This document shows positions 39,708-42,480 of a stretch of DNA of 64,000 bases, piece after piece; within the stretch, counting starts at the first letter, position 1; each line of letters begins with the position of its first letter. The notes under the pieces are model-generated. The model saw nothing but the letters and a program-made list of their open reading frames with translations, had not been told where the DNA came from and ran no database searches. The DNA is from Patescibacteria group bacterium (GTDB lineage Bacteria > Patescibacteriota > Patescibacteriia > 2-12-FULL-60-25), in assembly GCA_028688515.1 (NCBI GenBank), contig JAQTXZ010000001.1, positions 744,001 to 808,000 on the forward strand, written 5' to 3'. Both the position numbers and the translations under genes were made by a program.

Positions 39708-39926
39708 TTCAGTATCCGGATAGCAAATTAAAATTAAATATAAGCAAAAAGCTCTGAGGAGAGAGTTTTTGGCTAAACTACGCATATTTTAGACGTATCA
39801 ATGCCATGCATTCACGTCCAATCTCGTATTTAGCTGTAAATATAGATAGAAACGGCAAGTTTTGTGTAACTCTCCCAGGGTTTAGCGAAATTCGCCGTTT
39901 TTTCGTTAAACGAAGGAGCAGGAATT
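39708..39926 (+). promoter_or_regulatory. Structured leader with a possible pseudoknot and attenuator
   Basis: An 11-bp stem, GTTTAGCGAAA (39880-39890) with TTTCGTTAAAC (39901-39911), ends just before GAAGGAG. Its loop contains GCCGTT (39894-39899), which pairs with AACGGC (39851-39856) and is followed by a T run. The two pairings form an H-type pseudoknot or compete. GAGAGAGTT (39754-39762) can pair with AACTCTC (39869-39875). Riboswitch-like layout, ligand unknown. Confidence 0.4.
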
Positions 39927-42150: not shown

Positions 42151-42171
42151 GGATCTTTGAGAGGAAAAAAT

Positions 42172-42262
42172 ATAAAAAATTAAGAATTATGAATTAAGAA
42201 TTGTGAATTTTGGAATAAAATAATTATTTACATTCATTCGTAATTAGTACTTCGTAATTCAT
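42172..42262. repeat. AATTAAGAATT-type words
   Basis: Runs of AAAAATTAAGAATTATGAAT and relatives, as at 13007 and 42405. Confidence 0.65.
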
Positions 42263-42274
42263 GGCTGGTTCCAG

Positions 42275-42399
42275 TTGTTCGTTACGGGCCCGCAGGGACT
42301 TGTAAAACAAAGTTTTCTGTCTTAGACGAAAGTCAAAGACAAATCTCTCTCCTCGGAAATTTTGTTCTACCTCAAACCCTGCGGACCTGTGCCGAACAA
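42275..42399 (+). ncRNA. Candidate structured RNA, ~125 nt, family unknown
   Basis: A rod-like fold with long pairing: TTGTTCG/CGAACAA (42275-42281 with 42393-42399), ACGGG/CCTGT, CCGCAGGG/CCCTGCGG (42290-42297 with 42377-42384), an 8x10 internal loop, a 12-bp stem AACAAAGTTTTC/GGAAATTTTGTT (42306-42317 with 42355-42366), and a hairpin TGTCTT...AAGACA ending in GAC-GAAA-GTC, a GNRA tetraloop. The GAAA loop favours the plus strand. The closing stem loosely resembles 6S RNA, but the element is shorter. It is flanked by repeats, not genes. Confidence 0.5.
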
Positions 42400-42404
42400 T
42401 AAAA

Positions 42405-42480
42405 AAATTAAGAATTATGAATTTTGGAATATAAAAAACATCTTCATTAATTCTTAATTATTAATTCTTAATTCATAATT
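42405..42480. repeat. AATTATGAATT-type words
   Basis: Same family as 42172-42262; together they bracket the structured RNA. Confidence 0.65.

Follow-up and report, generated by a model that had tools for sequence, protein, structure and literature searches.

The window, i.e. the whole 64,000-nucleotide stretch of Patescibacteria DNA analysed here, contains a 125 nt rod-shaped structure on its plus strand (Table 1) with an MFE of -54.3 kcal/mol, compared with -26.1 +/- 3.5 for shuffled sequences (0 of 200 shuffles as good). No long ORF was found over these positions. The nested stems described in an earlier sequence-only reading are all present in the computed fold, as 6+6+8, 3+12 and 6+3 bp, and the 8x10 loop corresponds to 42298-42305 / 42367-42376, bridged in part by 3 bp. 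The earlier reading overlooked a 13 nt bulge that separates the apical hairpin from the inner stem on the 3' side; this bulge is the sole strongly conserved part of the window rod. With 30-100 nt of flanking sequence added, the rod fold is retained and the bulge is still unpaired. The GNRA cap noted before finds no support as a defining feature, as relatives have apical loops of other lengths and sequences.

Table 1. Features of the rod locus, in window coordinates
Feature	Position	Strand	Remarks
A+T-rich repeat	42165..42265		occupies the place of the relatives' sigma-70 promoter
Rod-shaped small RNA (structured part)	42275..42399	+	fold z = -8.18; covarying homologues
Closing stem, 5' strand	42276..42297	+	20 bp as 6+6+8 bp
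Inner stem, 5' strand	42302..42317	+	3+12 bp; flanks the bulge; helix P2, 7/7 modelled pairs compensated
Apical hairpin	42318..42341	+	6+3 bp, GAAA loop 42328-42331; loop and length vary among relatives
One-sided bulge, 5'-AAUCUCUCUCCUC-3', core CUCUCUCCUC	42342..42354	+	unpaired in MFE fold; 10-nt core invariant in aligned homologues
Inner stem, 3' strand	42355..42370	+	3+12 bp
Closing stem, 3' strand	42377..42398	+	20 bp as 6+6+8 bp
A+T-rich repeat, second copy	42402..42480		3' side, where relatives often have an intrinsic terminator

An Rfam 15 scan of the window returned only tRNAs above threshold, with no credible weak match at the element either. The rod, rightly called unassigned before, belongs to a newly recognised small RNA family without a counterpart in Rfam 15. 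Searches by blastn with the 133 bp core against 96 relatives, phages and plasmids gave zero matches, and the first homologues were found by inspecting the sequence beside orthologous genes. In G001, G004 and G006 (loci L030-L032) a rod is located downstream of the orthologous 684 aa DUF11 gene, with the same bulge as the window copy and entirely different arms. The family illustrates how RNAs in which all but the bulge changes escape both blastn and Rfam.

Additional rods throughout the class were recovered by a pattern search with the bulge sequence, and many more by a small covariance model (R1). The family is spread over many Uhrbacteria-type ultra-small bacteria: eight of nine genomes of the own genus are positive (G000, G001, G003-G008), and about 55 loci pass inspection, distributed over 17 families of the class and two genomes outside it (G406, G407), usually with one copy per genome. 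These prevalence counts are lower bounds, since the searches rely on the sequence of the bulge; a second model (R2), used as a genome scanner, missed known copies. Of 152 AGGAGAGAG sites, 58 passed an automated rod test, compared with 49 of 784 random sites. Matches outside Patescibacteria (L120, L122, L124, L126, L127) were discarded as chance, as they possess no rod and some are plain ribosome-binding sequences. A second GAGGAGAGAG (CTCTCTCCTC on the minus strand) occurs in the window at 39750-39780, inside a short terminator-like hairpin with a weak model match (E 0.08). Furthermore, G083 contains two near-identical stretches (L236, L237) with GAGGAGAGAG pairs at a distance of ~206 nt; these stretches may represent a repeated element.

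Compensatory changes in homologues, whose absence had been named beforehand as the outcome that would refute the structure, were looked for and are present. All 12 modelled pairs show double changes in the 19 training rows, with a score of 1.20 versus 0.24 when shuffled, figures that are optimistic because the core sequences were trimmed by hand. Among 26 sequences outside the training set 12 of 12 pairs are changed on both sides, 88% of cells are paired (51% shuffled) and the score reaches 0.68 (0.17 shuffled; none of 500 shuffles did as well), in an alignment that was fitted to the model and is thus biased toward the same result. Shifting the partner by 1-3 columns destroyed the signal. A full-length alignment of 24 copies has a nearly invariant basal stem (CUGC/GCAG) and bulge core, and 10 of its 15 consensus pairs are compensated. 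The 10 nt core itself is invariant in these 24 homologues, all selected for carrying it, so that the invariance is partly by construction, the homologues having been found through the motif. Four loci (L079, L089, L094, L199) have bulge and hairpin in permuted order, with the local geometry unchanged. A bulge core that stays fixed while the arms have moved beyond recognition by blastn points to a sequence-specific partner.

Promoters and terminators in the relatives belong to a single strand. Upstream on the RNA strand, 30 of 57 copies have a sigma-70 promoter that scores better than 95% of shuffles, compared with 3 of 57 for the opposite strand; examples are TTGACA-17-TAGCAT (G007, G008) and TTGACA-16-TATAAT (G406, G110). 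Of 56 copies, 19 have an intrinsic terminator directly 3' of the RNA and one has it on the opposite side (expectation 1.7), and the pyrimidine (RNA) strand forms the more stable fold in 38 of 46 copies. Together these three features place the RNA on the window plus strand, as originally drawn, and not on the GA-rich minus strand; the covariation lends further weight to a structured RNA. A Shine-Dalgarno (SD) mimic, in which the GA-rich strand would pair with the tail of 16S rRNA, was dropped along with that strand; the RNA strand imitates the 16S tail instead. The models R1 and R2 were built on the GA-rich strand and are still valid as search tools.

A promoter and terminator of its own indicate a standalone gene and not a leader, and, judged by those of its relatives, the rod is a standalone small RNA gene. 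Neither signal is evident in the window genome. The flanking DNA aligns with that of G006 up to about 42165, and beyond this point an A+T-rich repeat stands in place of the promoter region. The repeats said to bracket the rod are real, A+T-rich and present on both sides. This interspersed repeat (AATTAAGAATTATGAATT...) has about 60 matches in the genome and is often self-complementary. The promoter match left in the window copy (42194-42221) is at chance level only. As the repeat has overwritten the promoter region, the window copy may be poorly expressed, or may use the repeat. Farther along the window, between 48000 and 64000, the G+C content climbs from about 47% to roughly 60% and remains high, possibly marking a different genome domain or an acquired region.

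Arms that are rewritten around a frozen unpaired 10-mer suggest that the rod needs a fixed partner. The 16S tails of the class end in GGATCACCTCCTTTCT, i.e. they are canonical, and CUCUCUCCUC consequently resembles an anti-SD sequence. With about even confidence we propose a standalone single-copy small RNA of Patescibacteria that exposes an anti-SD-like bulge, pairs through it with the ribosome-binding sites of mRNAs and controls their translation. The gene would be transcribed on the plus strand from its own sigma-70 promoter, which is seen in the relatives, and would end at an intrinsic terminator. The main task of the long rod would be to present the single unpaired stretch CUCUCUCCUC, a putative mimic of the anti-SD tail of 16S rRNA (CACCUCCUUU), which is predicted to pair with GGAG/GAGGAG-type ribosome-binding sites and so to affect translation. 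By complementarity alone, the conserved unpaired stretch matches SD sequences, and it is predicted to pair modestly with a generic SD (-8 to -9 kcal/mol versus -21 for the full complement). No conserved mRNA target was found in the fetched DNA, where 7 of 95 non-element GAGGAGAGAG sites are located at the start of an ORF, with control 9-10-mers too few for comparison.

The anti-SD-like bulge gives a sharp prediction. Regulatory RNA is little known in Patescibacteria, a large share of bacterial diversity, and no report on it turned up in the literature searched. A single-copy RNA gene present over many families with a fixed 10 nt sequence is a concrete handle, traceable in existing metatranscriptomes.

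A somewhat unlikely alternative is a protein-binding decoy, whose bulge or rod titrates an RNA-binding protein or, 6S-like, RNA polymerase, with no pairing to mRNA. The long rod, single copy, own promoter and class-wide presence are consistent with such a role, as is a genome that itself lacks 6S RNA according to Rfam, and a fixed loop inside a freely changing rod also fits a protein ligand. However, this loop is pyrimidine-rich and anti-SD-like, and the bulge is one-sided instead of a two-sided central bubble. Moreover, the 6S model (RF00013) does not match the own genome, and relaxing the E-value brought up no match in the element or its relatives either; the controls matched in 5 of 14 genomes. 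Identity with 6S RNA was rejected on these grounds, i.e. a gathering cut-off not reached and a conserved loop that is a one-sided 13 nt bulge, and the loose 6S resemblance of the sequence-only reading falls with the unmatched model and the different layout. Improbable as well is a Patescibacteria-specific housekeeping RNA that would mimic the anti-SD tail of 16S rRNA and act globally on translation initiation, or would have a 6S-like role, in cells in which Rfam models recognise neither 6S nor SRP RNA.

The palindrome might instead act as DNA, in the form of a cruciform or a single-stranded DNA hairpin with arms matched at the DNA level, which we regard as quite improbable. One argument for it comes from the mismatches: G-U and A-C on the RNA strand number 62 and 44 (p about 0.1), a mild excess, weaker than usual for RNA and unlike the own rRNA (24 GU versus 9 AC). 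Such near-equal counts are odd for an RNA. In addition, six rpoB-linked copies (L280, L285, L286, L287, L296, L121) possess a perfect DnaA box TTATCCACA 77-138 nt from the bulge, with a chance expectation far below one, and in G168 (one genome; sampled stretches L312-L331) the RNA gene is located ~35 kb from a GC skew switch near 665 kb that marks the terminus. The cruciform reading is nevertheless weakened by the promoters and terminators, which are confined to one strand, at similar distances, and would be needless for a DNA element. A cis-acting leader or 3'-UTR element of a neighbouring gene is very doubtful: the rod precedes rpoB, murJ or ftsK co-directionally in many families, with 25 of 32 co-directional cases on the RNA strand (automatic ORF calls), but the neighbours are not constant across families (rpoB, murJ, ftsK, lepA, recA, an HTH protein, DUF11), a point against cis regulation. 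Many copies also have convergent genes on either side, and a terminator is often located immediately downstream. An integron attC-like site was likewise set aside; its basal boxes and extrahelical base are similar by eye, but the rod occurs in one copy per genome and has no attC core.

Among known RNAs, 6S RNA (RF00013) shares the long rod, the standalone gene and the single copy with the proposed anti-SD-like RNA, which differs in the lack of a two-sided central bubble and in its conserved letters. Bacterial SRP RNA (RF00169, RF01854) is likewise rod-shaped, but the present rod lacks the Ffh-binding asymmetric loop with its tetraloop. Neither SRP model reached its cut-off, and SRP identity was rejected, with no SRP match at the element. 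The small SRP RNA (RF00169) has no match in the own genome, and the large one (RF01854) none over the cut-off in 38 genomes; the class may have lost SRP RNA or carry a strongly diverged version. In the alpha-proteobacterial AbcR and cuckoo RNAs, which are short and often associated with Hfq, the seeds are situated in hairpin loops. These examples of anti-SD small RNAs with CU-rich seeds (named in PMC8844928, PMC10746234) resemble the rod in an exposed C/U-rich anti-SD seed, but neither sequence nor structure homology was seen.

A close parallel is Yfr1 of cyanobacteria, 54-69 nt long, which consists of two separate stem-loops and, between them, a fixed unpaired pyrimidine-rich 5'-ACUCCUCACAC-3', a proposed site of pairing to other RNAs (PMC2190773). 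The rod does not carry the undecanucleotide ACUCCUCACAC between two stem-loops, its CUCUCUCCUC being located inside the rod, and Rfam scans of the window and the element gave no match to the Yfr1 family. Its motif is a one-sided bulge in a 110-160 nt rod, of different sequence and in the Patescibacteria lineage. In contrast to these differences, both are small RNAs kept across a large lineage, with changeable helices and one fixed unpaired pyrimidine-rich stretch. In the best-supported reading, the rod is a trans-acting antisense RNA to ribosome-binding sites, which would work like Yfr1.
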